Virus record (IMG/VR): IMGVR_UViG_3300027861_002235 | Span: 1 to 35,701 of that record | Source of the DNA: a virus | Length of the DNA stretch: 35,701 nucleotides | Strand: one strand, 5' to 3' | The notes under the pieces: generated by a model | The model's input: only the letters and a program-made list of their open reading frames with translations | Databases searched by the model: none | What the model was told of the DNA's origin: nothing | Position numbers and translations under genes: made by a program | Shown: positions 3,688 through 24,741 of the stretch, one piece after another | Position numbering within the stretch: position 1 is the first letter of the stretch | Layout of the letters: every line of letters begins with the position of its first letter

Positions 3688-3927
3688 ATGATTGAGGAAA
3701 ATATTAAGCCTTGGTCAAGAAAGTATAAAGGATGTAAAGTATGTAATACTAGCAAAATTTCTCATAGACAAGAAGGATTTTGTTTGCTTTGTTGGGGTAA
3801 GGAAAGATATAGGAGGGAAAAAGAAAAATATAAAGAATACAATAAAAAATATTGGGAAAAAAATAAAGAAAAACTAAAGAAAAAAAATAAAGATTATTAT
3901 TTAAGAAAAAAATATGAAAATAGTTAA
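3688..3927 (+). CDS. Zinc-binding basic protein, likely an HNH-endonuclease-type N-terminal piece
   Basis: 79 residues. The N-terminal half has two Cys pairs (GCKVC at 15-19 and FCLLCW at 31-36), a probable zinc knuckle. The C-terminal half is a Lys/Tyr-rich helix with repeats of the type YKEYNKKYWEKNKEKLKKK. Such a knuckle plus Lys/Tyr repeat arrangement is common in phage homing-type HNH proteins, but no HNH catalytic segment follows. This could therefore be a remnant or a stand-alone DNA-binding protein. The last 14 bases overlap the QueE start. Confidence 0.5.
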   Translation: MIEENIKPWSRKYKGCKVCNTSKISHRQEGFCLLCWGKERYRREKEKYKEYNKKYWEKNKEKLKKKNKDYYLRKKYENS

Positions 3928-4612
3928 GATGGAGAATGGCTCTCCTGAAATATATAAAGCTGTACAAGGTGAAGGATTATCACTTGGTATGGCTTGTATT
4001 TTTGTAAGATTTTTTGGATGCACTTTGGATTGTACTTGGTGTGATACTGACTATAGTAAGAGAGGAGAGTTTATTGACATGGAGAAAATTGACGTGGCAA
4101 AGAAAATTTTAGAAGAAACAAACGGAGGCAAGATAAAAAGAATAATTTTCACAGGTGGTGAGCCAACATTATATCAAAATGATATATTGAGTATAATGAA
4201 AGAATTAAAAAAGGTAGACTCAGATTGGTATTTTGAGGTGGAAACAAATGGAACAGTTGAATTCAATAATGAATTTTTAACAAAAATAGATAGAATTAAT
4301 TGTAGTCCTAAATTGAGTGATTCTGGAAATGTTATTCAAAAAAGATATAAACCAGATGTTCTAACTCAAATAGCTGATATTGGTAGCTTTAAATTTGTTA
4401 CAGATGGAAATGATGACGAAATAAAAGAAATTAAAAAAATAATTAAAGAATGTAAAATTCCTGAAACTTCAATTATGTTAATGCCTAAAGGTGATAATAG
4501 TGCTGAAGTTGTAAAAAATTCAAGAAAAATAATTGATATTGTAGTCGAAGAGGGCTGGAAGGTAACAACTCGATTGCATATTTTATTATTTGAAAAGAAA
4601 AGAGGAGTTTAA
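3914..4612 (+). CDS. queE: QueE, 7-carboxy-7-deazaguanine synthase (radical SAM)
   Basis: A 232-residue radical SAM enzyme. The cluster motif CxxxCxxC is at Cys36, Cys40 and Cys43 (GCTLDCTWCDTDY). The QueE N-terminal signature YKAVQGEG is at 14-21, FTGGEP at 79-84, and a C-terminal TRLHILLF segment is present. QueE converts 6-carboxy-tetrahydropterin (the QueD product) to 7-carboxy-7-deazaguanine, using SAM and a 4Fe-4S cluster. It opens a block with QueD, FolE and QueC and so gives the phage the whole route from GTP to preQ0. The start at 3914 (AAAATATG) is well supported. Confidence 0.93.
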   Translation: MKIVKMENGSPEIYKAVQGEGLSLGMACIFVRFFGCTLDCTWCDTDYSKRGEFIDMEKIDVAKKILEETNGGKIKRIIFTGGEPTLYQNDILSIMKELKKVDSDWYFEVETNGTVEFNNEFLTKIDRINCSPKLSDSGNVIQKRYKPDVLTQIADIGSFKFVTDGNDDEIKEIKKIIKECKIPETSIMLMPKGDNSAEVVKNSRKIIDIVVEEGWKVTTRLHILLFEKKRGV

Positions 4613-4626
4613 CTTAAAATAATATG
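4610..4626 (+). repeat. Three-frame-stop gene joint, copy 5 (one mismatch)
   Basis: TAACTTAAAATAATATG keeps TAA in all three frames. queE uses the offset-0 TAA (4610-4612) and queD starts at the embedded ATG (4624). The copy lies 3.7 kb from the other four. Confidence 0.65.
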
Positions 4627-4965
4627 TATAAATTAAAATTAAAACATCATTTTGATTCATCTCATAAACTAGAATTAGACTATAAAAGTCCTTGTCAAAA
4701 TACTCATGGTCATAGATGGGAGGTAATAATTACAATAACAACGTATAAATTAAATAAAAATGGAATGGTTATTGATTTTAAACATCTAAAAGAAATAGTC
4801 AATGAATTGGATCATAAATGTTTAAATGAAGAATTAGACTTTAATCCGACTGCTGAAAATATTTCAGAATATTTATATGAAAAGATAAGTAAATTAGGTG
4901 AGTTATATAATGTTAAAGTAGAAATTTATGAAAGTCCAGAGGCTTCAATAACTTATTCAATATAA
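4624..4965 (+). CDS. queD: QueD, 6-carboxy-5,6,7,8-tetrahydropterin synthase
   Basis: A 113-residue T-fold protein of normal QueD size. Zinc ligands are visible as His14 (FDSSHKL) and His28/His30 (NTHGH). The catalytic Cys is Cys24 in SPCQNTHGH. The Asp-His pair DHKCLN is at 63-68, PTAENISEYL at 75-84, and the substrate-binding Glu in IYESPEASI near 103. It converts 7,8-dihydroneopterin triphosphate (from FolE) to 6-carboxytetrahydropterin for QueE. It starts from the ATG of the three-frame-stop joint directly after queE. Confidence 0.93.
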   Translation: MYKLKLKHHFDSSHKLELDYKSPCQNTHGHRWEVIITITTYKLNKNGMVIDFKHLKEIVNELDHKCLNEELDFNPTAENISEYLYEKISKLGELYNVKVEIYESPEASITYSI

Positions 4966-4969: not shown

Positions 4970-5122
4970 ATGGAAGTAATCTATAGCTTTATAACAGGCT
5001 TAATAGTAGGAGGCATATTTACACTATTAAAATTTCCAATTCCAGCACCACCAACATTATCAGGTATTGCGGGAATAGTTGGAATTTTCGTAGGGTATTT
5101 ATTAATTAAATTAATAAAATAA
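4970..5122 (+). CDS. XapX-like membrane microprotein, 50 aa
   Basis: A 50-residue protein starting at ATG 4970, 4 bases after queD, and ending 2 bases before the folE fusion. It has two hydrophobic helices (FITGLIVGGIFTLL; GIAGIVGIFVGYLLI) joined by KFPIPAPPTLS. The G-rich first helix, the PxPAPP turn and the GxxGxxxGxxL second helix fit the XapX (DUF1427) family, whose role is not established. Its place between queD and folE suggests a link to pterin or deazapurine metabolism or transport, but that is inference. Confidence 0.7.
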   Translation: MEVIYSFITGLIVGGIFTLLKFPIPAPPTLSGIAGIVGIFVGYLLIKLIK

Positions 5123-5124
5123 AT

Positions 5125-6048
5125 ATGCAAATAACATTCGAGAAGATTTCTACTGATAGCAAAAAATTAGCAGAAGAGATAAAAGCAATTGGTAAGAAAT
5201 ATGATGCGGTATTTGGTATACCAGCAGGGGGATTATTAACAGGACATATTTGTTCTGAAATATTAGAAATACCTCAATTAAGTTTATCTGAGTATAATGA
5301 GCAAAAAGGAACTAAAAAGATTTTAATAGTTGATGATTTAATTGATAGTGGTAGTACAATTAAAAAATTTCAAGAAGGAACTGGATATGATGTAGTAGTT
5401 GTTTATAAAAAAGAGAGTAGTCCAAATGATATAGCTCTTTATTATTGGGAAGAGTTACCAAATGAATGGATAGATTTTCCTCATGAAAAAAGCGAAACAG
5501 GAATTGAAGAACATTTAGTTAGAATAATGGAATATATTGGTGAAGATGCTGGTCGTGTTGGATTAGTAGATACTCCAAAAAGAGTAGCTAAAATGTATAA
5601 AGAGATTTTCAGAGGATATGATGAATCTCAAAAACCAAAAATAACTATATTTGATAACAATGATGATGGAATAACATATGATCAAATGATTACTGATAAA
5701 GGTGATTATTATTCACATTGTGAGCATCATATGGTTCCGTTCTTTGGTGACTATTATTTTGCTTATATTCCAGATAAAAAGATTTTAGGGTTAAGCAAGG
5801 TTGCTAGAATAGTTGATTTCTATTCAGCAAAATTACAAATTCAAGAGAGATTAGTAACTCAAATTGTTGATGAAATTGAAAAAGCTGTAAAGCCTAAAGG
5901 AATTGCTTTGGTTATGAAAGGCGAACATCTTTGTAAGACAATGAGGGGGGTAAAGAAAAAAGGAGTAATGACGACTTCTGATCTAAGGGGTGTGTTTAAG
6001 GATAAACCAGAAGTAAGAGACGAATTTTTAAAATTAATTAACTTATAA
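5125..6048 (+). CDS. folE: Phosphoribosyltransferase-GTP cyclohydrolase I fusion (PRTase-FolE)
   Basis: 307 residues in two domains. Residues 1 to about 120 are a type I phosphoribosyltransferase, with GIPAGGLLTG at 31-40 and the PRPP-loop motif ILIVDDLIDSGST at 66-78. The end, NEWIDFPHE, recalls the WxxFPWE end of xanthine-guanine PRTases. Residues ~125-307 are GTP cyclohydrolase I, with zinc ligands Cys199 and His202 (SHCEHHMVPFFG) and Cys270 (GEHLCKTMRGV), and SKVARIVDFYS at 224-234. FolE makes dihydroneopterin triphosphate for QueD. The PRTase may recycle guanine or another purine base to nucleotide to feed GTP; its substrate is not determined by the sequence. Confidence 0.88.
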   Translation: MQITFEKISTDSKKLAEEIKAIGKKYDAVFGIPAGGLLTGHICSEILEIPQLSLSEYNEQKGTKKILIVDDLIDSGSTIKKFQEGTGYDVVVVYKKESSPNDIALYYWEELPNEWIDFPHEKSETGIEEHLVRIMEYIGEDAGRVGLVDTPKRVAKMYKEIFRGYDESQKPKITIFDNNDDGITYDQMITDKGDYYSHCEHHMVPFFGDYYFAYIPDKKILGLSKVARIVDFYSAKLQIQERLVTQIVDEIEKAVKPKGIALVMKGEHLCKTMRGVKKKGVMTTSDLRGVFKDKPEVRDEFLKLINL

Positions 6049-6055: not shown

Positions 6056-6715
6056 ATGAAAAGCGTAACAGTTTTGTCTGGGGGCATGGATTCTACTACT
6101 TTATTGTATAAAGCAATAAAAGATGGTGATGAAGTAACATCAGTATTATCTTTTGATTATGGTCAGCGTCATAAGAGAGAACTCGAAATGGCAAAGAAAA
6201 CATGTGAGAAATTAGGACTATCACATAAGATTATAGACTTAACATCTGTAAGTCAGGTAATGAAAAATTCATCATTAACCGATGATATTGAAGTTCCTGA
6301 AGGGCATTATGCAGATGAAACTATGAAGGCAACAGTTGTTCCTAATAGAAATATGATTATGCTATCTATTGCTATTGCGGAAGCTGTATCAACTGGAGCG
6401 TCAAGGGTTTATTATGGAGCACATTCTGGTGATCATGATATTTATCCTGACTGTCGAAAGGAATTTGTGGAGGCGATGGATAAAGTTTCAAGAATTTCTA
6501 ATTATGAAGAAGTAGAAGTAGTTGCTCCTTTCATTGATATGGATAAAGGAGATATCGCTATTCTTGGAAAAGAATTAAATGTAGATTATTCATTAACATT
6601 AACTTGTTACAATGGGGCGGAAGAAGCTTGTGGAAAGTGTGGGTCTTGCGTTGAAAGGCTTGAAGCATTTGAAAAAGCCGGTATCTCAGATCCAATTAAA
6701 TATAAAAATAAATGA
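6056..6715 (+). CDS. queC: QueC, 7-cyano-7-deazaguanine (preQ0) synthase
   Basis: 219 residues, normal for QueC. The PP-loop SGGMDS is at 8-13, FDYGQRH at 33-39, VPNRNM at 95-100, and the C-terminal zinc site uses Cys184, Cys192, Cys195 and Cys198 (TCYNGAEEACGKCGSC). The enzyme converts 7-carboxy-7-deazaguanine to preQ0 with ATP and ammonia. No glutamine-amidotransferase domain is fused, as it would be in Gat-QueC, and no QueF reductase is seen in the window. preQ0 is therefore the expected end product here. The TGA stop overlaps the DpdA ATG as ATGA. Confidence 0.94.
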   Translation: MKSVTVLSGGMDSTTLLYKAIKDGDEVTSVLSFDYGQRHKRELEMAKKTCEKLGLSHKIIDLTSVSQVMKNSSLTDDIEVPEGHYADETMKATVVPNRNMIMLSIAIAEAVSTGASRVYYGAHSGDHDIYPDCRKEFVEAMDKVSRISNYEEVEVVAPFIDMDKGDIAILGKELNVDYSLTLTCYNGAEEACGKCGSCVERLEAFEKAGISDPIKYKNK

Positions 6716-7536
6716 ATTTATATATAGCGGGGAATGGAGTCACTGATGATAAAATGGAAGAATATAAGAAAAAAACATATTTACGAAAAGATAAGTTATA
6801 TTTATTGAATTCTTATTTAGAGATTAAGAATAAGAAAAATTTAGATAAAAGATATTTTAATTATCGCTATGATAAGGATCAATTCTTTTTAGATTCAGGT
6901 GCTTTTACTGCTTTCACCCAAGGAAAAGTGATACATATTGATGATTATATTGATTTTATAAAAAAAAATGAAAATGAAATTACACTGTATGCTTCGTTGG
7001 ATGTTATTGGTGATTATGAAAAAAGTCGTGTTAATCAGGAATATATGGAATCCAAGGGATTAAATCCTCTTCCAACTTTTCACGCAGGAAGTCCATTGGA
7101 AGAATTAGAACGAATGGTTGAAAAATATGATTATATTGCACTTGGGGGATTAGTCCCATTGGCTTTGGATAGAAAGAGAATGAAAGCATGGCTGGATAAG
7201 TGCTGGAAGGTTATTTTTAACAACACAATTAAGAAGAATAAACCATTAACAAAAATACATGGCTTTGGTGTGAATGCTCTTTGGGCTTGGGAAAGATATC
7301 CATTTTATAGTGTAGATGCAACAAGTTGGGTAACTGGATCAAAGTTTAGAAGAACAGTCAGATTTAATAATGGTAAAATGACTACCTCAAAAAAAGATAA
7401 ATCGAGGAATCTTGATACGATAAATTTATATACTAAGGAGTATTATCATTTAAATCTTCAAAATATAGATGAATATTACAAATCTTCAAATTATGTCACT
7501 AATCTTTGGAAAAAAAGAGGTATAATTTGGGAATAA
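6712..7536 (+). CDS. dpdA: DpdA-like DNA/tRNA guanine transglycosylase
   Basis: A 274-residue TIM-barrel protein with TGT-superfamily landmarks: LDSGAF at 60-65 (compare DSGGF of TGT), SLDVIGD at 95-101, IALGGLV at 142-148, KIHGFGV at 181-187 and VDATSW at 201-206. Asp61 and Asp202 are the candidate catalytic Asp residues. It lacks the long C-terminal zinc domain of bacterial tRNA TGT, and the motifs fit the phage DpdA group, which exchanges guanine in DNA for a 7-deazaguanine. ATGA coupling to queC supports a shared pathway. Whether it acts on DNA or on the phage tRNAs cannot be settled from sequence, but DNA is the better guess. Confidence 0.82.
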   Translation: MNLYIAGNGVTDDKMEEYKKKTYLRKDKLYLLNSYLEIKNKKNLDKRYFNYRYDKDQFFLDSGAFTAFTQGKVIHIDDYIDFIKKNENEITLYASLDVIGDYEKSRVNQEYMESKGLNPLPTFHAGSPLEELERMVEKYDYIALGGLVPLALDRKRMKAWLDKCWKVIFNNTIKKNKPLTKIHGFGVNALWAWERYPFYSVDATSWVTGSKFRRTVRFNNGKMTTSKKDKSRNLDTINLYTKEYYHLNLQNIDEYYKSSNYVTNLWKKRGIIWE

Positions 7537-13081: not shown

Positions 13082-13678
13082 ATGAAAATTGTATCAAGTT
13101 GGGATGATGGTTCTGGATGGGATATGAGATTACTTGATTTATTAAAGAAGTATAAGATTCAAGGCACATTTTATATACCAACAATAAATGATCTAAGCAC
13201 TATAGAAATAAATAGTATACACGAAGAAGGCTTTCAGATTGGAGGTCATACTATTAGTCATCCAGAGGACTTAAAAAGGCTGTCATACGAACAACAATTA
13301 AACGAAATACAAGGTAATAAAGAATATCTAGAGGAGCTTATCGGAGATGAGGTTACTTCTTTTTGCTACCCAGGTGGAAAATATAATGAAGCTACAATGG
13401 GTATAGTCGAGAAGGTTGGATTTAGAGAAGCTAGAACAACAATGGTTGGCTCTATAAGTGAACCTGAAAATAGATTTAGAAGACATACTACTGTTCATGT
13501 GTATAATGGAAGACCTGAATACAAAGGAAAAACATGGCAAGAGTATGGTTGGGAAAAGTTTTTAGAGGCAGATAGAGTAGACGGGTATTTTCACATTTGG
13601 GGACATTCATTGGAAATAGAACATCATAATGAATGGAAAAATCTAGAAGAATTTTTTAGAAAAATATATGATTACTAA
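13082..13678 (+). CDS. NodB-type polysaccharide deacetylase
   Basis: A 198-residue carbohydrate esterase 4-like protein. The metal triad is visible: Asp8-Asp9 in SWDDG, then His56 and His60 in GGHTISHP. Motif 3 is FCYPGGKYNE and the C-terminal HIWGHSLEI provides a late His. Family members remove N-acetyl groups from chitin-like, peptidoglycan or poly-GlcNAc chains. There is no signal peptide, so it acts inside the cell, perhaps on a sugar intermediate of the downstream glycosyltransferase cluster. It overlaps the next gene by 11 bases. Confidence 0.85.
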   Translation: MKIVSSWDDGSGWDMRLLDLLKKYKIQGTFYIPTINDLSTIEINSIHEEGFQIGGHTISHPEDLKRLSYEQQLNEIQGNKEYLEELIGDEVTSFCYPGGKYNEATMGIVEKVGFREARTTMVGSISEPENRFRRHTTVHVYNGRPEYKGKTWQEYGWEKFLEADRVDGYFHIWGHSLEIEHHNEWKNLEEFFRKIYDY

Positions 13679-13949
13679 AATAAGTAATGTAAAAATAATT
13701 GAAGCGAGTGATAAGAAAGGATTAGTTGCCTTGGCATCTATTGTAATCAATGATTCATTTTATCTTGGATCAATTGGTATTTATATAGCATTAAAAGGTG
13801 GATACAAAGGATACAGATTAACCTTTCCTACAAAAAAATTAAAGGATGATAATGATATAAAATTATTCTTTCCTATTAATATTTCCTTAACGAATACTAT
13901 GAATAGGGCAATAATTAATGAATATCTATTTACAATTAAGAATAAGTAA
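13668..13949 (+). CDS. SpoVG-like protein
   Basis: 93 residues resembling SpoVG: a TKISNVKIIEA start, a VALASIVINDSFYL strand pair, GYRLTFPTKKL in place of the family fPskk turn, IKLFFPIN matching the AhPIN segment, and a C-terminal helix (AIINEYLFTI). SpoVG proteins bind nucleic acid and act as regulators in Firmicutes and other bacteria; phages carry related genes. The start overlaps the deacetylase by 11 bases and the stop is followed 1 base later by a glycosyltransferase start, so it is part of the same operon. Confidence 0.65.
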   Translation: MITKISNVKIIEASDKKGLVALASIVINDSFYLGSIGIYIALKGGYKGYRLTFPTKKLKDDNDIKLFFPINISLTNTMNRAIINEYLFTIKNK

Positions 13950-13950
13950 T

Positions 13951-14841
13951 ATGAAGGTATATTTACCTAACTCAAGTAAACAATCATTAGGTGGTGGTTG
14001 GACATTTAGAAGAAATCTAGTTAAAGGCTCTAAAGAATTATTTGAAGTTGTCGATGATTGGAAAGAATGTGACATAGCTTTAATTAGTGGAGTTACGATG
14101 GTTACAAGAGATGAAATGCAAGCAATAAAAGAAGCAGGAAAGAAAATAGTTCTCCGTGTTGATAATATGCCAAAGGATTCAAGAAATAGAGGAACAGCAT
14201 TTAGTAGAATGAAAGACTTTTCCAAGATGGCAGATTATATTATATTTCAAAGTAAATGGGCAATGGATTATGTAGGTTATTGGATAAAGAATACAGTGGA
14301 AGCAGAAGCAATGAATACTATTGGTAAATACTCTATAATCTTTAATGGTGTTGATACTGAATACTTTTACTTTGAAGATAATCCAAGACAAAGACCAGAG
14401 AATTACTTATATGTTCAATACAATAGAGATGAGAACAAAAGACCAACGGAAGCATTTTATAATTTTGCAATGAAATCAAGATTTATAACAAATGCAAAAT
14501 TAAGTATAGTTGGGAATTTTAGTCCTGAAACTATTAATTATAATTTTGATTTCTTTAACAATGAATTAGTTAGTTATCAAGGAGTCTTTAATGATCCAAT
14601 GGAAATGGGAAATGAAATGAGAAGAAATAAGTATTTATTATTTCCAGCATTTGCAGACGCTAGTCCTAATACAGTTGGAGAAGCATTGGCATGTGGAATG
14701 ATTCCAAAAGCTACAAATAAAGTAGGTGGAACAAAAGAGGTGATTCAATATCTTTTATCACATAAACAAAAAACTGGTAGTACATATTCGATACAAAATA
14801 TGGCTTATCAATATAATGAAGTATTTAAAAAATTAATTTAA
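13951..14841 (+). CDS. Glycosyltransferase, GT4-like
   Basis: I start at ATG 13951 (AATATG), not at 13918 inside the previous gene. The 296-residue GT-B protein begins with a glycine-rich donor-side loop (GGGWTFRRN), has IIFNGVDTEYF as the inter-domain segment, and a C-terminal GT4 donor-site motif, FADASPNTVGEALACGM, with the conserved Glu of the E-x7-E region. It should transfer a nucleotide-activated sugar. The acceptor is unknown: phage protein, DNA base or cell glycan. It shares a dense operon with a deacetylase and a SpoVG-like gene. Confidence 0.8.
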   Translation: MKVYLPNSSKQSLGGGWTFRRNLVKGSKELFEVVDDWKECDIALISGVTMVTRDEMQAIKEAGKKIVLRVDNMPKDSRNRGTAFSRMKDFSKMADYIIFQSKWAMDYVGYWIKNTVEAEAMNTIGKYSIIFNGVDTEYFYFEDNPRQRPENYLYVQYNRDENKRPTEAFYNFAMKSRFITNAKLSIVGNFSPETINYNFDFFNNELVSYQGVFNDPMEMGNEMRRNKYLLFPAFADASPNTVGEALACGMIPKATNKVGGTKEVIQYLLSHKQKTGSTYSIQNMAYQYNEVFKKLI

Positions 14842-14846
14842 AAAAT

Positions 14847-15218
14847 ATGGACAACAATATAAAAAAAGAAACAATGGAAAAACTTTTGAGTGATTTATAT
14901 GCTGATTATTTAAAACACAAATCAGTGATTCATTATTTAAAAGTTAAACATTTTGATGAGATCAAGGAAGATCTAGATGAGGTAAGAAAAAATCTAGCAG
15001 ATGTTAGAACAAAAGCAGAAGATGAAAAAATAAGTGAAGAAGAGACTAAGGAATGTGCTATTAAAATTGCTGAACTTGAAGGCAGAATTGATTTATGTGA
15101 ACAAAAAAGAGAAGAGGTTAGATTAGCTGAAGGAAGAATTGAGGAAACTATTAAGCACTACAATTATATAAAAAATCTTCACAGTGAAGGGGTTTATAAT
15201 AATAGTAAATTGGATTAA
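14847..15218 (+). CDS. Coiled-coil protein, 123 aa
   Basis: 123 residues, almost entirely charged helix with heptad-like Leu/Ile positions (DEVRKNLADVRTKAED; IAELEGRIDLCEQK), predicted to form a long coiled coil. It starts 5 bases after the glycosyltransferase with AAATATG. There is no metal or catalytic motif. It could be a scaffold or structural helper. The 130 bases after it contain a palindrome and a promoter-like site. Confidence 0.55.
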   Translation: MDNNIKKETMEKLLSDLYADYLKHKSVIHYLKVKHFDEIKEDLDEVRKNLADVRTKAEDEKISEEETKECAIKIAELEGRIDLCEQKREEVRLAEGRIEETIKHYNYIKNLHSEGVYNNSKLD

Positions 15219-15262
15219 TTTTAAGAAGTTCTTTACAATTAAAATAAATTATTTGTTTTTTC

Positions 15263-15276
15263 CTTTAATATTAAAG
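15263..15276. promoter_or_regulatory. Perfect 14-bp palindrome
   Basis: CTTTAATATTAAAG, flanked by T and A runs (15255-15281), lies 13 bases upstream of a promoter-like site. It could be a dimeric repressor site or a weak bidirectional terminator. Confidence 0.3.
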
Positions 15277-15288
15277 AAAAAATAGGTC

Positions 15289-15317
15289 TTGATTTATTAT
15301 TAAATATAATATATAAT
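15289..15317 (+). promoter_or_regulatory. Sigma70-like promoter of the repeat-protein gene
   Basis: TTGATT (15289-15294), a 17-base spacer, then TATAAT (15312-15317), followed by an AT-only leader to the ATG at 15349. It is the best-spaced promoter seen, but the region is almost pure A/T. Confidence 0.45.
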
Positions 15318-15348
15318 ATATATATAATAAATAATATAAATAAAAACT

Positions 15349-15912
15349 ATGAAAAAAGCATTAACAAGAAATAATAAAGAATTATATTATCTTGATAAAA
15401 AAGGAAAAAAAATAAATGGAGTTCATAAAAATATCACTGGTAATCCTTCCCGTATTTATGGTGATGTTACTAATATCTATGGTGATACTTCCCGTATTCA
15501 TGGTGATATTTCTAATCTTATTGGTAATGTTTTTCATATCTATGGTGATGTTTCTAATATCTATGGTGATGTTTCTAATATTTATGGTGGTGTTTCTGAT
15601 ATATCTGGTGATGTTTCTGATATATCTGGTAATGTTTCTAATATCTCTGGTGATGTTTCTAATATCTCTAGTAATGTTTCTGATATATCTGGTAATGTTT
15701 CTAATATATCTGGTGATATTACTGGTATCTCTGGTGATGTTTCTAATATTTATGGTGGTGTTATTAATATTTATGGAGGTGTTTCTAATATCTCTGGTGA
15801 TGTTTCAGGTGTCTCTGGTGGTGTTTCTAATATATCTGGTGATTTAGATGAATGTGAGATAACACAAGAGGATAGAAAAAATGGCATTGATATAAATACT
15901 TTAATTAACTAA
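15349..15912 (+). CDS. Heptapeptide-repeat (beta-solenoid-like) protein
   Basis: 187 residues. A basic, Tyr-containing N-cap (residues 1-29) is followed by about 20 tandem heptads of the form [YS]G[DGN]V[ST][ND]I (residues 30-169), for example YGDVSNI and SGNVSNI. The C-cap is DECEITQEDRKNGIDINTLI. The regular Gly at position 2 and Ile/Val at positions 4 and 7 fit a narrow beta-solenoid. Similar G-D-V-S repeat proteins with this type of C-cap occur in phage and bacterial genomes with no assigned role. DNA mimicry or a structural rod are possible, not shown. The gene has its own candidate promoter. Confidence 0.7.
   Translation: MKKALTRNNKELYYLDKKGKKINGVHKNITGNPSRIYGDVTNIYGDTSRIHGDISNLIGNVFHIYGDVSNIYGDVSNIYGGVSDISGDVSDISGNVSNISGDVSNISSNVSDISGNVSNISGDITGISGDVSNIYGGVINIYGGVSNISGDVSGVSGGVSNISGDLDECEITQEDRKNGIDINTLIN
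15436..15855 (+). repeat. About 20 degenerate 21-bp tandem units within the solenoid gene
   Basis: Units resemble tctggtgatgtttctaatat. Each codes for one heptad, and they vary mainly at codons 1 and 3. The array is a candidate for unit gain and loss by slippage. It is coding and lacks unique spacers, so it is not CRISPR. Confidence 0.8.
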
Positions 15913-15923
15913 TATAAATAACA

Positions 15924-16346
15924 ATGTTAGAAAAAATGTATGAAGAGTTTACTGCTAATATCTTACCAAAAATAGCAGAAGGGTTAGTAATCACAAAGGA
16001 TTATTTCTTGGAATTTTTTAGTAGGTATATCAAATACTTATTGATTATTGATTCAATTTATTTATTAGTTAATATTATAGTATTTATAACATGTCTGATT
16101 ATCTTTGTGAAAACCACAAAATGGTGTAATAACTTTAATGAAGATGAAGAAGGGGAGACTTTTGATAGGTCAGGAAGTAGGATATTGATATTTATACTAG
16201 GTGCATTAATCACTCCAGGATTTATACTTTTTTCTTTTATTGCTATTCTTGTTTATAGCGAAAAAGTAGTAAAGGATATATATATTCCAGAAATTAGAAT
16301 ATATGAAGAATATCAAGACATGAAGATTGTTAATAATAATAAATAA
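15924..16346 (+). CDS. Membrane protein, 140 aa
   Basis: 140 residues with two or three hydrophobic segments: residues ~38-62 (YLLIIDSIYLLVNIIVFITC and following) and ~90-112 (RILIFILGALITPGFILFSF and following). An acidic loop lies between them (NFNEDEEGETFDRSG) and a charged tail follows. It may alter the host envelope or act in lysis or exclusion; no family is recognised. It sits between the solenoid protein and a duplicated-domain protein. Confidence 0.6.
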   Translation: MLEKMYEEFTANILPKIAEGLVITKDYFLEFFSRYIKYLLIIDSIYLLVNIIVFITCLIIFVKTTKWCNNFNEDEEGETFDRSGSRILIFILGALITPGFILFSFIAILVYSEKVVKDIYIPEIRIYEEYQDMKIVNNNK

Positions 16347-16350
16347 TAAT

Positions 16351-16899
16351 ATGGACTTCAATAATATTGATAAGGAAAAATTCAAAGAAGGAGTAATTGA
16401 ACTAGCAAAAAGAGTTAAAAGCGAAGCTATTAAAGTGGATAAGCCAATGACTGAACTACAATTCGAAAATCTTAAAGTTGGAGATAAATTTAAATTCTTA
16501 GAATCTCGTATAGCATATACTCCTTTTGGAAAAGGATTTATAGCTACAATAACAAGTGTATCAACTGAAAAAGAAGGTTATTGTGACGTTACATTTGAAG
16601 ATAATTGTACTATATGGCACGTAACTAAAAGAAATCATGATAAGTTAAGTTTAGTGGAAAAGAAAATAGAAAAGAAACCAATGACTAAATTACAATTCAA
16701 TAATATTAAAGTTGGAGATAAAGTTGAATTCCTAGTAGATAGGGTATCAAGTACTCCTTATAAAAAGGGATTTGTAGCTACAGTAAAGTCTAGAGTAGTA
16801 AATGGTGAGTGTCTTTATATCGAATTCCATGAAGATGGTCATACCTGGAACTTAATTACAGATCATTGCAATTTATTAAGTTTAGTAGAAAAAAACTAG
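16351..16899 (+). CDS. Duplicated-domain protein with the shared N-terminal helix, 182 aa
   Basis: I start at ATG 16351 (AATATG), not at TTG 16327. Residues 10-24 form a helix, KFKEGVIELAKRVKS, parallel to those at 10474 and 17149. Two tandem repeats follow, residues 31-104 and 109-181. Each has KPMT-LQF-N-KVGDK near its start, a TP-GKGF-AT core and an L-SLVEK end. The VGDK and GKGF turns suggest a small beta-barrel (SH3- or KOW-like), which is inference. The stop codon lies inside tRNA-Asn. Confidence 0.6.
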   Translation: MDFNNIDKEKFKEGVIELAKRVKSEAIKVDKPMTELQFENLKVGDKFKFLESRIAYTPFGKGFIATITSVSTEKEGYCDVTFEDNCTIWHVTKRNHDKLSLVEKKIEKKPMTKLQFNNIKVGDKVEFLVDRVSSTPYKKGFVATVKSRVVNGECLYIEFHEDGHTWNLITDHCNLLSLVEKN

Positions 16900-16967
16900 A
16901 GTAGCATAATTGGTAATGCACCACCCTGTTAAGGTGAACAATATAGGTTCGAGTCCTATCTTTAGTG
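16895..16967 (+). tRNA. tRNA-Asn (GTT)
   Basis: 73 bases. Acceptor stem ACTAGAG/CTTTAGT, D-arm GCAT/ATGC, anticodon loop CTGTTAA (GTT), T-arm ATAGG-TTCGAGT-CCTAT, discriminator G. One C-A mismatch closes the anticodon stem. The first 5 bases overlap the end of the preceding CDS. G34 of this tRNA is a normal queuosine position. Confidence 0.9.
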
Positions 16968-16988
16968 CTTATAATTTATAATAAAGAT

Positions 16989-17156
16989 ATGGGAGATATA
17001 TCAAATATGATGATGACTGGGGTTATGTGTGCAATGTGTGGTGAGTTTTTAGATTGCGAGCAATGTGCAGATATGGAAATACCTATGTATTGCTGTAATT
17101 TATGTGCAGAAAAGGCAGGAACTAATAAAGATCAAGTTTGTAATCATTATGAATAA
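16989..17156 (+). CDS. Small zinc-finger protein, 55 aa
   Basis: I start at ATG 16989 (GATATG). The 55-residue product has CAMCGEFLDCEQC, then IPMYCCNLCAEKAG. This is the small phage zinc-finger layout in which a CxxCG knuckle is paired with a PxYCxxxCA knuckle, so one or two zinc ions are likely. It lies 21 bases after tRNA-Asn and overlaps the next gene by 8 bases. A nucleic-acid or protein adaptor role is inferred. Confidence 0.65.
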   Translation: MGDISNMMMTGVMCAMCGEFLDCEQCADMEIPMYCCNLCAEKAGTNKDQVCNHYE

Positions 17157-17760
17157 AGAAATACAGAAACAATTGAAAAAAGGGATTGAAAAAATAGTAA
17201 AAGATGTGAATAAGATAAAGATTAAACCTGAGCCATCATTTCCTTTTTATCCATTCAATGAGGAGACAGTGAGAGCTAGGAATACAACAAAGAGAGTAGT
17301 AAAGGATAATAAGGCATTGGTTCAATATCCTAATCGTTGCGCTCGTGGTACTAGCACTCTTACTTATTATGCTGCTGGTAGCATTGTAACTAAAAAAACG
17401 TATTATTATTGTGGATATGTAGCTATTCCTAATGAAAAATTGCCAATAGAGTGGAAAAATGAAGACTTGTACGCAGATGATCTTCATAGATTAAATATTT
17501 ATGGTGGTTTAAATTATTGTGATTACCAAGAAGAATACACAGTATTTGGATTTGATTGTAATCATTACGGAGATGATGAACGTAAAGAATTACAAGATGA
17601 AAAATTTGTATTTAGATTAGTAGACCAAATGGAATATTGTATATTAGAATATGCGAAACAATATGACAAATGGAAGAAATCTTATAATCTCGGAAGATTA
17701 ATAATTATAAAATCAATAAATTCACATAGCACGAGTAAATTCCATGACAAATCATTTTAA
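17149..17760 (+). CDS. Conserved phage protein of unknown function, 203 aa
   Basis: I start at ATG 17149; the longer upstream frame runs inside the zinc-finger gene. Residues 3-23 form a basic helix (KEIQKQLKKGIEKIVKDVNK) similar to those at 10474 and 16351. The core contains CGYVAIPNEKLP, NIYGGLNYCD and VFGFDCNHYGDDE, a pattern I recall from uncharacterised phage proteins (GYVAxP, HGGLTY, GFDCxHxGD). The conserved Cys, His and Asp residues could bind metal. No function is established. Confidence 0.6.
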   Translation: MNKEIQKQLKKGIEKIVKDVNKIKIKPEPSFPFYPFNEETVRARNTTKRVVKDNKALVQYPNRCARGTSTLTYYAAGSIVTKKTYYYCGYVAIPNEKLPIEWKNEDLYADDLHRLNIYGGLNYCDYQEEYTVFGFDCNHYGDDERKELQDEKFVFRLVDQMEYCILEYAKQYDKWKKSYNLGRLIIIKSINSHSTSKFHDKSF

Positions 17761-17764
17761 AAAT

Positions 17765-18013
17765 ATGAAAAAAGACGAAGCAACAGAAAATAAAATAAAA
17801 GAAGCATACTTTAATTTATTCTTAGAAGCAATTAAAGAGTGTTTTAAACCTTTTACTTATAGAGAATATATAAGTGAAGAAAGAATGATAACGATAAAGA
17901 GAAGAAGGATGGATTTTGCAAATGGAGATGGCGTGAAGTTGTGGTGTGATGCTTCAGATAATTTTGAATATAATAAGTTAAAAAATTTAATTCATAAACA
18001 TAATAAAATATAA
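17765..18013 (+). CDS. Unknown basic 82-aa protein
   Basis: I start at ATG 17765 (AAATATG), 4 bases after the previous stop, not at 17744. The 82-residue helical, charged product has an aromatic middle (FLEAIKECFKPFTYREY) and a C-terminal DGVKLWCDASDN segment. No family or motif recognised; it is part of a run of closely spaced small genes. Confidence 0.5.
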   Translation: MKKDEATENKIKEAYFNLFLEAIKECFKPFTYREYISEERMITIKRRRMDFANGDGVKLWCDASDNFEYNKLKNLIHKHNKI

Positions 18014-18014
18014 T

Positions 18015-18224
18015 ATGAAAGATAAAACAACATCAGCATTATTAGCTTTTATCCTAGGAGGCTTTGGAGTGCATAAATTTTATCTAGGAAAAACAGGAAT
18101 GGGATTACTGTATTTAGTATTTTCATTAACATATATCCCTGCCATAGTGGCTTTCATTGAATCATTGGTATTATTCTCAATGACTGAAAAGGATTTTAAT
18201 AAGAAATATAATAGTAAAAAATAA
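18015..18224 (+). CDS. TM2-domain membrane protein
   Basis: 69 residues matching the TM2 domain: KTTSALLAFILGGFGVHKFY, then LGKTGMGLLYLVFS and a second membrane helix ending IESLVLF, with a short charged tail. The GGFGxHxFYLG motif between and around the two helices is the family hallmark. TM2 proteins occur widely in bacteria and some phages. Their role is unclear. It starts 1 base after the previous stop. Confidence 0.85.
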   Translation: MKDKTTSALLAFILGGFGVHKFYLGKTGMGLLYLVFSLTYIPAIVAFIESLVLFSMTEKDFNKKYNSKK

Positions 18225-18228
18225 ATAT

Positions 18229-18816
18229 ATGGCTTCATTAAGTCGTGAACAACTTGAAAAATGGTTAAGAACTGTTGATGTGAAAGTTGATAATGTTTTA
18301 GATATTGGCGGAAGTCAAAATCCAATCAATAAAAGAGTTAAAAGTTGGGAAGTAAAAGAATCTCTAATATTAGATTTACCAGAACCACATGAAGGATCAC
18401 CTAAACCAGATATTGAATGTGATCTAAATAAATTGGATGAATGTACTCCAGAATATAAATATCCAGAAGGTTTAAGAGATTGGGCTGATATATCTTTTTG
18501 TATAGAGGTCAGTGAATATTGGTATAATCCATTACAGGCATTAAAAAATATAAATTATTTTATGAAGTCTGGGGGAGTTTTATATATTAGCTTTCATTTT
18601 ATATATCCAGTACATAATCCAAAAGGATTAGACTACCTAAGATATACACCTAATGGAGCTGAAAAGATATTAGAAGAAGCAGGATTCAAAGTAGAAGAAA
18701 TCATAAACAGAGAAGGAGATGGATTTGGTGTGATATATGATATGAATAGAATGAGAGGGCGTAAAGATTATAATCAAAGGATACAAGGCTCATTAATCAA
18801 AGCAATCAAAAAATAA
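18229..18816 (+). CDS. SAM-dependent methyltransferase-like protein, 195 aa
   Basis: The protein has VDNVLDIGGSQNP as motif I (SAM loop). Acidic strand ends follow (LILDLPEPHE; DIECDLNKLDE), then CIEVSEYWYNPLQALKNINY and the SGGVLYISFHF strand, as in class I methyltransferases of the Methyltransf_11 type. The substrate is unknown. It lies in the sugar-modification cluster, so methylation of a sugar or glycan is plausible. Right after its stop comes the SD-bearing cassette. Confidence 0.7.
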   Translation: MASLSREQLEKWLRTVDVKVDNVLDIGGSQNPINKRVKSWEVKESLILDLPEPHEGSPKPDIECDLNKLDECTPEYKYPEGLRDWADISFCIEVSEYWYNPLQALKNINYFMKSGGVLYISFHFIYPVHNPKGLDYLRYTPNGAEKILEEAGFKVEEIINREGDGFGVIYDMNRMRGRKDYNQRIQGSLIKAIKK

Positions 18817-18821
18817 GGAGG
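18815..18821 (+). promoter_or_regulatory. Strong Shine-Dalgarno site before a TTG start
   Basis: AAGGAGG, 7 bases before TTG at 18829. Nearly all other genes in the window lack such a site, and it justifies the TTG start. Confidence 0.75.
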
Positions 18822-18828
18822 GAAAAAA

Positions 18829-19002
18829 TTGGCAGAGATAGAATTGGTTTGTCCAAAATGTTCAAGTGATGATATTGCATCCGTTAAAAGAGATAATGGT
18901 TCTGGGATGATAACTAGTATCATTGCATTTTGTAAGAAGTGTGGACATTGTTTTAGTAAACCATGTTATTATAAAAAGGAGGATAGTAATGAAGAAAAGT
19001 AA
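18829..19002 (+). CDS. Zinc-ribbon protein with TTG start, 57 aa
   Basis: The TTG start is supported by the AAGGAGG site 7 bases upstream. The 57-residue product begins MAEIELVCPKCSSDD and has FCKKCGHCFSKPC later: two CxxC knuckles 26 residues apart, i.e. a zinc ribbon. It overlaps the next gene by 14 bases. SD-driven initiation and a TTG start set it apart from its neighbours and suggest that the pair came from an SD-using phage or host such as a Firmicute. The function is unknown. Confidence 0.7.
   Translation: MAEIELVCPKCSSDDIASVKRDNGSGMITSIIAFCKKCGHCFSKPCYYKKEDSNEEK
18976..18983 (+). promoter_or_regulatory. Shine-Dalgarno site
   Basis: AAGGAGGA, about 5-6 bases before ATG 18989. It decides the start of the second SD-type gene against the in-frame ATG at 18923. 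Confidence 0.7.
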
Positions 19003-19198
19003 AACAATATTGATATTGGATGAAGGTGATTTTAAGGTTCTTCTTTCTGGGTTACGAAAATCATTAACTGGCATAACAATAGAGTATGCGGCTAGATTTG
19101 AAACCGAAGAAGAGTTGATTGCAGTTAGTAGAGTTAAAAAAGTTTTAATCAACATGAAGAGGATTAAGGCTGACAAAAAGGAAAAAGTAAAAAAGTAA
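18989..19198 (+). CDS. Unknown 69-aa charged protein (SD-type cassette)
   Basis: ATG 18989 follows a strong SD. The 69-residue product has a strand-like start (KTILILDEGDFKVLLSGL), a Thr/Ile core (SLTGITIEYAARFETEEE) and a basic C-terminal helix (INMKRIKADKKEKVKK). It overlaps the zinc-ribbon gene by 14 bases and is followed by a hairpin terminator. It is probably a helical DNA- or protein-binding protein. No family is recognised. Confidence 0.65.
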   Translation: MKKSKTILILDEGDFKVLLSGLRKSLTGITIEYAARFETEEELIAVSRVKKVLINMKRIKADKKEKVKK

Positions 19199-19210
19199 GA
19201 AAGAAAAAGA

Positions 19211-19243
19211 TTGACAGGGGAGGAATAAATTCTCCCTTGTCAA
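19211..19243. terminator. 12-bp hairpin terminator
   Basis: TTGACAGGGGAG pairs with CTCCCTTGTCAA (one G-U pair) around a 9-base loop. It is followed by an A/T-rich tail without a clean T run. It closes the SD-type cassette and lies 16 bases before tRNA-His. Confidence 0.6.
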
Positions 19244-19259
19244 AATTATTTATTGCGAT

Positions 19260-19330
19260 GTGGTTATAGTTCAATGGTAGAGCATCGGCTTGTGGTGCCG
19301 ACAATTGGAGTCCAAATCTCCATAGCCACC
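19260..19330 (+). tRNA. tRNA-His (GTG)
   Basis: 71 bases. Acceptor stem GTGGTTA/TAGCCAC, D-arm GTTC/GAGC, anticodon arm TCGGC-TTGTGGT-GCCGA (GTG), T-arm TGGAG/CTCCA with loop TCCAAAT. C73 is present, but the base at -1 is T rather than the usual encoded G, and the T-loop has C where T55 is expected. CCA is not encoded. G34 is a queuosine site. Confidence 0.88.
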
Positions 19331-19357
19331 CCCTAGTAAATAATTGAATATTGATTA

Positions 19358-19453
19358 CTGGCGAATGTGGGTTTCACGTAGGGAGTCTAGTAAGTGTAAT
19401 ATTTATACTGAGGGATTCACCTTTATAGTATACGGAAAATCACCTCTCGCCAG
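19358..19453 (+). ncRNA. Structured RNA candidate A downstream of tRNA-His
   Basis: CTGGCGA (19358-19364) pairs with TCGCCAG (19447-19453). Inside are AGTGTAA-TAT-TTATACT and a GAGG/GATT-AATC/CCTC stem. No ORF lies here; tRNA-His to 19763 is a 430-base gene-free stretch. It could be an untranslated phage RNA or a processing structure. It matches no class I know. Confidence 0.4.
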
Positions 19454-19475
19454 CAATTAGTATTTAATTCTTTAT

Positions 19476-19575
19476 AAAAAGTTGGGTATTAATTATTCAA
19501 TAAAGTAGAATCATGGGGACGATATTCTACCATTCGGGATAGTTAGTGGGGTATTTATTTACTCCCTAGCTTTTT
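19476..19575 (+). ncRNA. Structured RNA candidate B
   Basis: AAAAAGTTGGG (19476-19486) pairs with CCCTAGCTTTTT (19564-19575, one bulge). It encloses the 7-bp hairpin GTAGAAT/ATTCTAC (19505-19511 with 19524-19530). It ends in T5 followed by ACAAAG. It directly follows candidate A in the same gene-free region. Confidence 0.4.
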
Positions 19576-19656
19576 ACAAAGAATTTATGTTTGATAAACT
19601 TGGAATATGTTGTAAATTGGTATTTTTCCAATTTTTTATACTGAATTTATTAATAT

Positions 19657-19685
19657 TAGTGATAGATAATAAGAATTTATCACTA
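19657..19685. promoter_or_regulatory. 8-bp inverted repeat upstream of the gene at 19763
   Basis: TAGTGATA (19657-19664) and TATCACTA (19678-19685), separated by 13 A/T-rich bases. It could be an operator or a weak hairpin. Nothing else is seen between 19576 and 19762. Confidence 0.3.
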
Positions 19686-19762
19686 TCATTATTAATAATG
19701 TATCAATTTATATTATTGTGTTACCTACGTTATAAATATAATAAATATGTTAAAGATTAATT

Positions 19763-20017
19763 ATGTATGCAGGAATATCTTTTACAAAAAAAGAAAGAGA
19801 CTATATCAATAAATTGTGGACTGGAAGTGGTTTTACTTCTTCTAGTACTACCGACACTAAAGGAGAATCCCATTGGGTTAGCATTACTGTTAATGGCGAT
19901 ATTTATTGTAATAATCCATATCCTGAAAAAGAGGAAGAGAAAAAAGAAAAAGTGCAATTGCGGTTGCCAGGAAATTACAGATTACGAGACTTTAATGAGA
20001 AAATAAAAAAAATATAA
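19763..20017 (+). CDS. Unknown 84-aa protein
   Basis: 84 residues. A folded-looking N-terminal part (MYAGISFTKKERDYINKLW; HWVSITVNGDIYCNNPYP) is followed by a Lys/Glu tail and a basic end (QLRLPGNYRLRDFNEKIKK). It is the first gene after the RNA-rich gap. The ATG at 19763 is the first in frame; an overlapping ORF from 19767 is a shadow. No family recognised. Confidence 0.5.
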   Translation: MYAGISFTKKERDYINKLWTGSGFTSSSTTDTKGESHWVSITVNGDIYCNNPYPEKEEEKKEKVQLRLPGNYRLRDFNEKIKKI

Positions 20018-20018
20018 T

Positions 20019-20198
20019 ATGCAATCTTTCATACTGTTTTCAGTAATTTTTTGGACTATAATATTAATACTTATTAAATGTAGGTATGTTCTTGGCGGAA
20101 AGACAATTTTAAAACCAAAAGCAATAATATTTATAACAATGTTCTTTGTGATTGCTGTTTATATAGGTCTATACATAAGTACTAAAAAATATGAATAA
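20019..20198 (+). CDS. Two-span membrane protein, 59 aa
   Basis: ATG 20019 (AATATG) lies 1 base after the previous stop. The 59 residues contain two hydrophobic helices (FILFSVIFWTIILILI; AIIFITMFFVIAVYIGLYI) joined by a basic loop (KCRYVLGGKTILKPK). It overlaps the next gene by 8 bases. It is a small integral membrane protein of unknown role. Confidence 0.6.
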   Translation: MQSFILFSVIFWTIILILIKCRYVLGGKTILKPKAIIFITMFFVIAVYIGLYISTKKYE

Positions 20199-20676
20199 AG
20201 AAGTTAACATTAATCTTGGGAGTGGCAGATTGATAATTAAAGGCTACATCAATATAGATAAAACACAGATCATTGACGGTAGAGGCAATAAAACTGTAGA
20301 CATTTTATTGGATATTGAAAAAGAAAAATTACCATTTGAGGATAATTCAGTAGACAGAATAAAAGTTGATAATGTGCTAGAACATGTAGATGAATTAGAA
20401 TTTGTCTTAAATGAGTGTCATAGAGTATTAAAAAAAGACGGAGTGATAACTGGTATTGTTCCAAAAGCTGGAACTGAATTGGATTTCTCTGATCCAACAC
20501 ATAAAAGGCATTTCACTAGAAGAACATTCAGTTATTTTACAGGAGAGAGTCTTTCACATAAAGATAAACCAGCTCATCCTAAGTATGCTGATTATGGATT
20601 CAAGCCTTGGATTCAAAATGATCTTCAAATACAAGAAAATGATCTAATACACTTTATAATGTCACCTAGAAAATAA
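20191..20676 (+). CDS. Class I SAM methyltransferase, 161 aa
   Basis: Motif I is degenerate but visible as NINLGSGRLIIKGYINID. The middle has LPFEDNSVDRIKVDNVLEHV, then LNECHRVLKKDGVITGIVP, the Methyltransf_11-type segment seen in sugar and lipid methyltransferases near polysaccharide clusters. A His-rich FSDPTHKRHFTRRTF follows. It is short for the fold but otherwise intact. It is probably coupled with the next methyltransferase (10 bases on). The substrate is unknown. Confidence 0.8.
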   Translation: MNKEVNINLGSGRLIIKGYINIDKTQIIDGRGNKTVDILLDIEKEKLPFEDNSVDRIKVDNVLEHVDELEFVLNECHRVLKKDGVITGIVPKAGTELDFSDPTHKRHFTRRTFSYFTGESLSHKDKPAHPKYADYGFKPWIQNDLQIQENDLIHFIMSPRK

Positions 20677-20686
20677 ATTTAAAAAT

Positions 20687-21238
20687 ATGTTAAACAATAA
20701 AGAATTTTACGAAAGTATAATGCCAATAGAGCAAAAAATAGTTGATTACTATAAGTCTTTATGTCATGAGAATAAATTTGAAAATGTTTTAGAAATTGGA
20801 AGTGGTTGGGGATTATTTACTAGAAGCGTAATGGAGGGTTGCGATGCAAAGATAACCACAATAGATAAAATAAATGACTTAGAGACTTTTCAAAAAAATA
20901 CAGCAGGATATGAAAAAAGAATAAAGCGAGTGATTGGATCATCTAGTGAAAAATTGCCTGGACTAATATCATTGGGAAATAAATATGATTTAATCTATGT
21001 AGATGGTGATCACGGATATGATGGAGTCGTAGAGGATTTAGAGAAAGTAAAAAAATTAATATTACCGAATACTATTATTATATTAGATGATGTTTTTCAT
21101 AAAAATAATTGGAAACCATATAAAGATGGATTTGATTATGGAGTAGCTAAGGCAATGTGGGAATTTGTTAATGAGAATAATTTTAGTAAGGTAGAGATTA
21201 TTAACATAGGACATGGAGTAGTTAAAATTAATATTTAA
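20687..21238 (+). CDS. Class I SAM methyltransferase, Methyltransf_24-like, 183 aa
   Basis: ENVLEIGSGWGLFTRSVME is the SAM loop. A late YDLIYVDGDHGYDGVVEDL and IIILDDVFHKNNW segment matches Methyltransf_24 and cephalosporin-hydroxylase-like proteins, in which the DGDH motif lies near the active site. Such enzymes often occur in glycan clusters. It lies between another methyltransferase and a sulfotransferase-like gene. The exact substrate cannot be given. Confidence 0.8.
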   Translation: MLNNKEFYESIMPIEQKIVDYYKSLCHENKFENVLEIGSGWGLFTRSVMEGCDAKITTIDKINDLETFQKNTAGYEKRIKRVIGSSSEKLPGLISLGNKYDLIYVDGDHGYDGVVEDLEKVKKLILPNTIIILDDVFHKNNWKPYKDGFDYGVAKAMWEFVNENNFSKVEIINIGHGVVKINI

Positions 21239-21243
21239 TCTAT

Positions 21244-21846
21244 ATGAGAGTCGTACTAATTACACAACAAGGGAGTGGAAGTAATCTATTAAGGAGTTTG
21301 CTTAATAGTCATTCTGATATATTTTTCGCAAATGAAATTCTTACAAAGTCAGAAGAATATCAAAATTATCAAAAGAAATATTCTATTGATGCTCCTAAAA
21401 AATATATAAATAATTTCTTTAATAAAGATAGACCTGAAAAAGTAATTGGATTTGATTTAAAATATAACAATATATCTCCAGAGCCTCAGATATTAGATTA
21501 TTTAAAAGAAAATAAAGATATTGTAGTTATCCATTTATATAGATGTAAAGGTAGAACTTTTATGAGAGATATGAATGAAAAGAATAAAGCGACTTTATCC
21601 TATGGACAATTTCAAGAACATTTAAAATGGATGAATAAATGGCAAGAGTTAATTGAAAAAGAATTCAATATTGAGGGTAGAAAATATATACGTATTAATT
21701 ACGAGGAAATGACTAGGGGTTATGAGATAGAAGAATTACCTCATTATCTAAATGAAGAGTTATGTAAATTCTTAAAAGTAGACAATGTTAAATTAACTAA
21801 GTCTAAAGAACAGGTTAGAGAGAATAAACTTAAAATGAGATATTAA
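21244..21846 (+). CDS. Sulfotransferase-like protein
   Basis: 200 residues. QQGSGSNLLRSLLNSHSDIF at residues ~8-27 is the PAPS phosphosulfate loop seen in carbohydrate sulfotransferases and Stf0-type proteins. DIVVIHLYRCKGRTFMRDM near residue 100 resembles the 3'-phosphate-binding segment, with Arg in place of the usual Arg-Asn pair. KYIRINYEEM follows, as in the family. It may sulfate a sugar built by the neighbouring enzymes, using host PAPS. The call rests on two motifs; a kinase-like P-loop is less likely. Confidence 0.65.
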   Translation: MRVVLITQQGSGSNLLRSLLNSHSDIFFANEILTKSEEYQNYQKKYSIDAPKKYINNFFNKDRPEKVIGFDLKYNNISPEPQILDYLKENKDIVVIHLYRCKGRTFMRDMNEKNKATLSYGQFQEHLKWMNKWQELIEKEFNIEGRKYIRINYEEMTRGYEIEELPHYLNEELCKFLKVDNVKLTKSKEQVRENKLKMRY

Positions 21847-21865
21847 TAAAATAAGAATATAATCT

Positions 21866-23491: not shown

Positions 23492-23523
23492 TAATTGATA
23501 ATAAAAGAATTAAATAAAAATGT

Positions 23524-24573
23524 ATGAATAAAACAAGAATATTTAATCATGTATGGCATTTAGGTCATCAGTACAGCTTAGCTCAAATTCCCGATACTGA
23601 ATTATATTGGCTAAACACTCCAAGAAGAACTTTCAGTTCAATGCCTAGAGGTCCATTAGAGAATTACAAAAACTTTAAAGAGTATGTTCCTTATTATGAG
23701 TCTGGAAAATATGACGTAGCAATTCTTCACTTAGATCAACAATGCTTAGAAGAGCAATTATGGGATAGAGGTAAAGGAAGTTTATTTAAAGAATTGAATG
23801 AAGTTGTAACTGATATTCCAAAGATCGTTATAATGCACGGTACTCCTTATTATCCTGAAATGTTTGGTTGTGATATTAAAAAGGAAAATTATGAAGCACT
23901 TGGGATGGAGGAAGGAAGTATTGGAATGAGTAGCGAATTAATAAATAAATTCAAAGAAGCAGTTAAAGATTGTGATAAGATTATTTTTAATAGCCATACA
24001 GCTCAAAGACAATGGGGATTCGCAAAAGATCCAAGAGCTAAAACAATTATTCATGGGCTAGATGAAAACGAATGGTTTGATTTACCTAAAGAGCCAAGAG
24101 TAGTTACAATGATTAGCCCAGGTGGATTAGATTTATATTATGATAGAACTTTCTTAAAGGCAGTAAAAGAAGAATTGGCTGAAAGAGGAATAGAACATTG
24201 TCATATTACAGTTGATCAAAGATTTAGTAATTGGGATGAGTACAGAACTTTTCTTGGTTCAAGTCTACTTTATTTTAATCCAACAAGGGAAAGTCCAATG
24301 CCTAGAAGTAGAACAGAAGCAATGCTTTCTGGTTGCTGTGTTATCACTACTTTAAATCAAGATGCAGAAACATTTATTGAAGATGGTGTTAATGGCTATA
24401 AGGCAGTAAGAAATCCACAATACATTGCTGATCTAGTAGAAGGTCTTATTAATAATTATAAAAAAGCCGTTGAAATTGGGCAAAAAGGAAAAGAAACTGC
24501 TTTGAAATTGTTTAACCATGATAGATATATGAAAGACTGGAGAGAGACAATAGATGAAGTATTAAATAAATAA
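23524..24573 (+). CDS. Glycosyltransferase, GT-B type, 349 aa
   Basis: The N-domain starts RIFNHVWHLGHQYSLAQIPD and has IPKIVIMHGTPYYPE. The C-domain has SSLLYFNPTRESPMPRSRTE, then AMLSGCCVITTLNQDAETFI and EDGVNGYK, the GT4-like donor site with Glu in RTEAML. It resembles phage- and bacteria-encoded GT-B proteins of unknown acceptor. Intact length supports activity. It is the third glycosyltransferase-like gene in the region. Confidence 0.8.
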   Translation: MNKTRIFNHVWHLGHQYSLAQIPDTELYWLNTPRRTFSSMPRGPLENYKNFKEYVPYYESGKYDVAILHLDQQCLEEQLWDRGKGSLFKELNEVVTDIPKIVIMHGTPYYPEMFGCDIKKENYEALGMEEGSIGMSSELINKFKEAVKDCDKIIFNSHTAQRQWGFAKDPRAKTIIHGLDENEWFDLPKEPRVVTMISPGGLDLYYDRTFLKAVKEELAERGIEHCHITVDQRFSNWDEYRTFLGSSLLYFNPTRESPMPRSRTEAMLSGCCVITTLNQDAETFIEDGVNGYKAVRNPQYIADLVEGLINNYKKAVEIGQKGKETALKLFNHDRYMKDWRETIDEVLNK

Positions 24574-24581
24574 TTTAAAAT

Positions 24582-24731
24582 ATGTTAAATAGAAAAGATT
24601 ACACTACATTAATATCATTATTGAAATCGCTTAAAGCATCTGAAGCAATAGATTGGAATGAAGAATATGAATCAATGGTGGATAAATTAGCAAATTGTAA
24701 AATTGAATTAATCAAAAAAGATAATCAATAA
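24582..24731 (+). CDS. Unknown 49-aa helical protein
   Basis: ATG 24582 (AAATATG), 8 bases after the previous stop. 49 residues in two short helices (RKDYTTLISLLKSLKASEA; EYESMVDKLANCKIELIK). The compact helical hairpin resembles small phage proteins that bind others; no family is recognised. The next gene begins 10 bases later. Confidence 0.55.
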   Translation: MLNRKDYTTLISLLKSLKASEAIDWNEEYESMVDKLANCKIELIKKDNQ

Positions 24732-24741
24732 ATTAAATTAT

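Follow-up and report, generated by a model that had tools for sequence, protein, structure and literature searches.

Base exchange is the established mechanism of TGT and has been proposed for DpdA; exchange of the TGT type is reversible, and guanine competes in it. The closest described systems are the 7-deazaguanine DNA modification clusters of phages such as 9g, CAjan and nt-1, which carry queE, queD, folE, queC and dpdA, and in which DpdA is taken most likely to exchange bases as TGT does (Hutinet 2019, PMC6884629). About 25-27% of the dG in phage 9g DNA is replaced, as quoted in a further paper (PMC8265664), so that much guanine would be freed. In the papers found here, neither the fate of the guanine ejected by the transglycosylase nor the supply for guanine replacement on a large scale is addressed, and the accounts of 7-deazaguanine phages do not mention a phosphoribosyltransferase (PRTase).

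The window analyzed here, a stretch of 35,701 nucleotides, is a 35.7-kb virus record and thus a viral (phage) contig. It contains the same five genes, and in it folE is joined to a PRTase domain, as follows.

3914 to 4612, plus strand: queE (phrog_2076, E=1.5e-47)
4624 to 4965, plus strand: queD (6-carboxytetrahydropterin synthase), short, 113 aa (PF01242, E=4e-30; TIGR03367, E=2.5e-25, slightly below cutoff)
5125 to 5493, plus strand: PRTase domain, compact and XGPRT-like, residues 1-123 (PF00156, PHROG 8995, NCBIfam NF006613; AlphaFold2 model)
5494 to 6048, plus strand: FolE (GTP cyclohydrolase I) domain, residues 124-307 (PF01227, E=4e-59; TIGR00063, above cutoff; Z 22.5)
6056 to 6715, plus strand: queC (preQ0 synthase; PF06508, E=8.5e-70; TIGR00364, above cutoff)
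6712 to 7536, plus strand: dpdA-like DNA guanine transglycosylase (phrog_887, E=3e-52)

The fusion ORF (5125-6048, plus strand) starts with ATG and encodes 307 aa within a stop-to-stop frame of 5110-6045. The gene order is queE, queD, PRT-folE, queC and the dpdA-like gene; next come a gene resembling ParB and that of the large terminase. By profile matches, the preQ0 set of folE, queD, queE and queC is complete in the window. DpdA is identified through phrog_887; the bacterial-type NCBIfam DpdA model matches the product at E=2e-3, below its cutoff. There is thus a strong case that this is a phage 7-deazaguanine DNA modification cluster and that PRT-FolE belongs to its pathway; the virus probably replaces guanines of its genome with a modified base. 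The original prediction had overlooked this context, which gives its idea of purine salvage a concrete source of free guanine, namely DpdA exchange. Between queD and PRT-folE lies an ORF for a 50-aa membrane microprotein (4970-5122) that resembles DUF1427 (E=4e-5, below cutoff) and has relatives in the corresponding clusters of two other loci, L025 and L046.

We propose that the fusion is a two-domain enzyme of the phage 7-deazaguanine pathway that returns guanine freed by DpdA to GMP and GTP for use by FolE, a reading we hold with about even confidence. The functional residues of its two domains are located as follows.

5320 to 5358, plus strand: PRPP loop ILIVDDLIDSGST, residues 66-78; D74 falls at the position of the catalytic Asp in Gpt
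5467 to 5487, plus strand: WIDFPHE, residues 115-121, purine-binding segment, aligned with Gpt WIEQPWD
5719 to 5730, plus strand: zinc motif C199-E-H-H202, invariant in 55 of 55 fusions
5932 to 5934, plus strand: third zinc ligand C270, invariant in 55 of 55 fusions

The C-terminal domain is, by sequence and model, a complete GTP cyclohydrolase I, and its activity is predicted from the family. It scores 199 bits against a cutoff of 27 for GTP_cyclohydroI (PF01227) and 194.5 bits against 181.6 for TIGR00063, and the three zinc ligands named in the original prediction (C199, H202 and C270) are all present. It differs from ordinary FolE in its N-terminal PRTase and in that it would serve the phage preQ0 pathway rather than folate. 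In another locus (L020:4555-5976), an intein-like insertion splits the FolE frame right at the zinc motif, immediately ahead of CEHH.

The N-terminal domain was recognized by Pribosyltran (PF00156; E=1.3e-6, 28.2 bits, cutoff 26.3), by PHROG 8995, 'phosphoribosyl transferase' (residues 3-123, E=2.6e-8), and by the NCBIfam xanthine PRTase model NF006613 (residues 2-123, E=4.9e-11). The last match, at 42.4 bits, does not reach the curated cutoff of 138, and we therefore call the domain XGPRT-like rather than XGPRT. Like Gpt (XGPRT), it has the common fold, a PRPP loop with three Asp residues, a Lys, and a purine segment of the form WI.x.P[W/H][D/E]. Conservation was counted in an alignment of 55 diverse fusions. 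The PRPP loop is intact, as had been predicted: D70, D71, G76 and T78 are invariant, and the catalytic Asp D74, whose counterpart in 6-oxopurine PRTases (HGPRT, XGPRT) contacts purine N7, is kept in 53. The purine-stacking W115 and E121 occur in all 55 and the purine-pocket Lys, K96, in 47. Distinct differences from Gpt, besides the score and the FolE partner, are found at two sites. At the PPi-loop Arg position, Arg is kept in 41 of 55 fusions and is Ala34 in the window protein; the spacing from GG to DD, which holds the flexible active-site loop, is 20-34 residues in the fusions and 33 in the window, as against 48 in Gpt. From its residues and context, the domain is likely to turn free guanine and PRPP into GMP.

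An AlphaFold2 model built on the alignment of 55 fusions (mean pLDDT 95) resolves into two clear domains linked by a short joint, and supersedes a middling model from five sequences (pLDDT 73). Superposition gives its PRTase half Z 16-17 against XGPRT and HGXPRT, and its FolE half Z 22.5 against solved FolE. Profiles and model thus agree with the original prediction of a PRTase fused N-terminally to FolE, and the likeness of its WIDFPHE end to XGPRT is borne out by the alignment with Gpt. Distances of the PRTase and FolE domains co-vary across the fusions (Mantel r 0.63, against 0.18 at most in shuffles), as expected for a joint that had long been inherited.

The main rival to guanine recycling is that the PRTase domain has lost catalysis and controls FolE as a sensor of guanine, GMP or PRPP. 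PurR-type proteins reuse the PRTase fold in a parallel manner. A reduced flexible loop and a PPi-loop residue that varies would suit a sensor, as would a direct joint with the enzyme that opens the pathway, and PyrR regulators also match the model, with Z about 12.7. Against this, the catalytic Asp and the Lys are kept in most fusions, and PRTases encoded by separate genes, described below, adjoin GMP reductase, a dNMP kinase-folE pair or queE and so are not always joined to FolE. On balance we regard a sensor as rather unlikely.

When related sequences were collected, fused PRTase-FolE proteins were found in 79 loci. Of these, 39 span 12 kb or more; queD and queE are present in all 39 and dpdA in 37. 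Matches spanning 80% or more of the protein's length were also found in 28 records of cultured phages, mainly Queuovirinae, at 32-38% identity. For example, the folE genes of the Queuovirinae NP1, PaMx25 and VpKK5 and that of Sphingomonas phage MMDA13 have the identical fusion and pathway, at only this level of identity to the window. Where the fused proteins of cultured phages are annotated, it is only as GTP cyclohydrolase, and many such annotations would be corrected. Recurrence in 79 loci and in cultured genomes rules out frameshift, misassembly or chance as the origin of the fusion. The original prediction had not recognized the architecture as a standard one. It is common in phages; in the literature searched there is no mention of a PRTase-FolE fusion or of a PRTase with these clusters, and our claim of novelty is limited to that scope. 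A cellular architecture was also considered and rejected: among the best 80 FolE loci of bacterial and archaeal genomes there was one fusion, in a Planctomycete MAG contig (L122:4959-11118) with ParB-, DpdA-, QueD-, QueE-, PRT-FolE- and terminase-like ORFs. Because ParB-, QueD-, QueE- and terminase-like ORFs adjoin it, this sole match outside virus collections is probably phage-derived, either a prophage or a stray phage.

A PRTase, fused or separate, was present in 31 of 58 viral loci with both queE and folE (19 fused, 12 as a separate gene), a prevalence that is biased upward since the queE loci were picked by similarity to queries taken partly from fused loci. It was found in 3 of 22 queE loci without folE and in none of 36 random viral loci. 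No PRTase was found in the remaining 27 queE-folE loci, and where no PRTase lay next to the locus, a search of the rest of the record, made for 32 loci, detected one in a single record only. The FolE of Alteromonas phage R7M lacks a PRTase, yet it branches inside a fused clade of the FolE tree; the domain is thus dispensable and has probably been lost at times. Counted on well-supported branches of that tree, the fused state must have changed 12 times or more, and gains are not distinguishable from losses among these changes.

Separate PRTase genes were located at several positions near the pathway. Directly upstream of folE, one is found in Flavobacterium phage immuto and another in L037, where the two frames overlap by 4 bases. 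In L012 the gene lies between queE and queC, in Pseudomonas phage Callisto it adjoins queE, and in Brevundimonas phage MaInes it is directly downstream of folE, which is itself preceded by a dNMP kinase gene. Six contigs of large marine phages have the order folE, GMP reductase (guaC), PRTase, queE. The cassette at L245:1773-5530 consists of folE, GMP reductase, an XGPRT-like gene and a purine-type permease, then queE; its GMP reductase and PRTase are conserved in L225, L228, L250, L252 and L265, and three of the six contigs also carry a permease homologous to the Xan_ur_permease-type protein of L245. The placement of a PRTase beside GMP reductase, in some cases with a permease, points to guanine as the substrate and, most simply, GMP as the product. 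In L041 (6562-7359), between folE and queC, a degenerate PRTase (ARDG, VDNTIRTGHT) is joined to a HAD-like domain.

These marine cassettes also bear on a second alternative, in which the PRTase serves general purine salvage, making GTP or dGTP from whatever guanine, xanthine or hypoxanthine the infected cell contains and having no particular tie to DpdA. The GMP reductase and purine-type permease would fit such a role, and no dpdA was found in the large marine phages with phrog_887, phrog_7068 or the immuto protein as query, of which phrog_887 matched no control either. General salvage would account poorly for fusion specifically to FolE and for the near-constant presence of dpdA in the longer fused loci, and we consider it distinctly unlikely. 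That the PRTase uses a 7-deazapurine base (preQ0 or a relative) to make nucleotides for incorporation by polymerase, an alternative raised in the original prediction and consistent with its presence in 7-deazaguanine clusters, is very improbable, since exchange by DpdA, encoded in 37 of the 39 fused loci of 12 kb or more, makes such nucleotides unnecessary, the N7-contacting Asp persists in 53 of the 55 fusions although preQ0 and its relatives bear a substituted carbon at position 7, and GMP reductase neighbours imply GMP.

The preferred reading is recycling of the guanine released by DpdA, which we infer to proceed as follows. FolE would carry out the first step, from GTP toward preQ0, in which C8 of the purine departs as formate. 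DpdA would then exchange guanine in DNA for the deazaguanine, releasing one guanine per modified base, and the PRTase domain would combine the released guanine with PRPP to give GMP. Host or phage kinases would raise GMP to GTP, which would re-enter FolE and refill its pool. Fusion would keep both capacities in a fixed ratio, with one GTP entering for each guanine released; taking up guanine would also clear an inhibitory, competing product and pull the reversible exchange forward. We suggest more tentatively that these steps form a closed loop, from ejected guanine through GMP, GTP and preQ0 to DNA, in which guanine removal also drives the exchange toward completion. The suggestion in the original prediction that a salvaged purine could be channelled to GMP and GTP for FolE stands as plausible feeding; direct transfer within the protein itself is impossible, because GMP needs two kinase steps to become GTP.

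Recycling is supported by the window cluster, dpdA in the fused loci, the kept active-site residues and the separate linked PRTases, as well as by the enrichment of PRTase in queE-folE loci and the co-variation of the two domains. It is weakened by a flexible loop that is largely missing, by the Ala at the PPi-loop Arg position of the window protein, by the absence of PRTase from 27 of 58 queE-folE loci and from R7M, and by the large marine phages, in which three queries found no dpdA. Hosts generally have guanine salvage enzymes of their own, which weakens it further. A PRTase that recurs, whether in fusion or as a neighbouring gene, would fill a gap in the pathway and would make the question of the by-product directly testable.

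Several other features of the window were noted. Two of its three tRNAs are Asn-GTT and His-GTG (16895-16968 and 19260-19332); GUN anticodons are targets of queuosine modification. The region from the terminase to a portal-like gene (26023-27783) contains, at 13082-25614, genes for a polysaccharide deacetylase, two glycosyltransferases and methyltransferases, together with a weak sulfotransferase-like gene. A protein composed of short repeats (SGDVSNIYGDVSNI) is encoded at 15349-15912, and a head-morphogenesis-like protein at 27773-29611 has an intein-like insertion, with junctions at HPNC/FDKYTEV and VVWSGN/CRCD.
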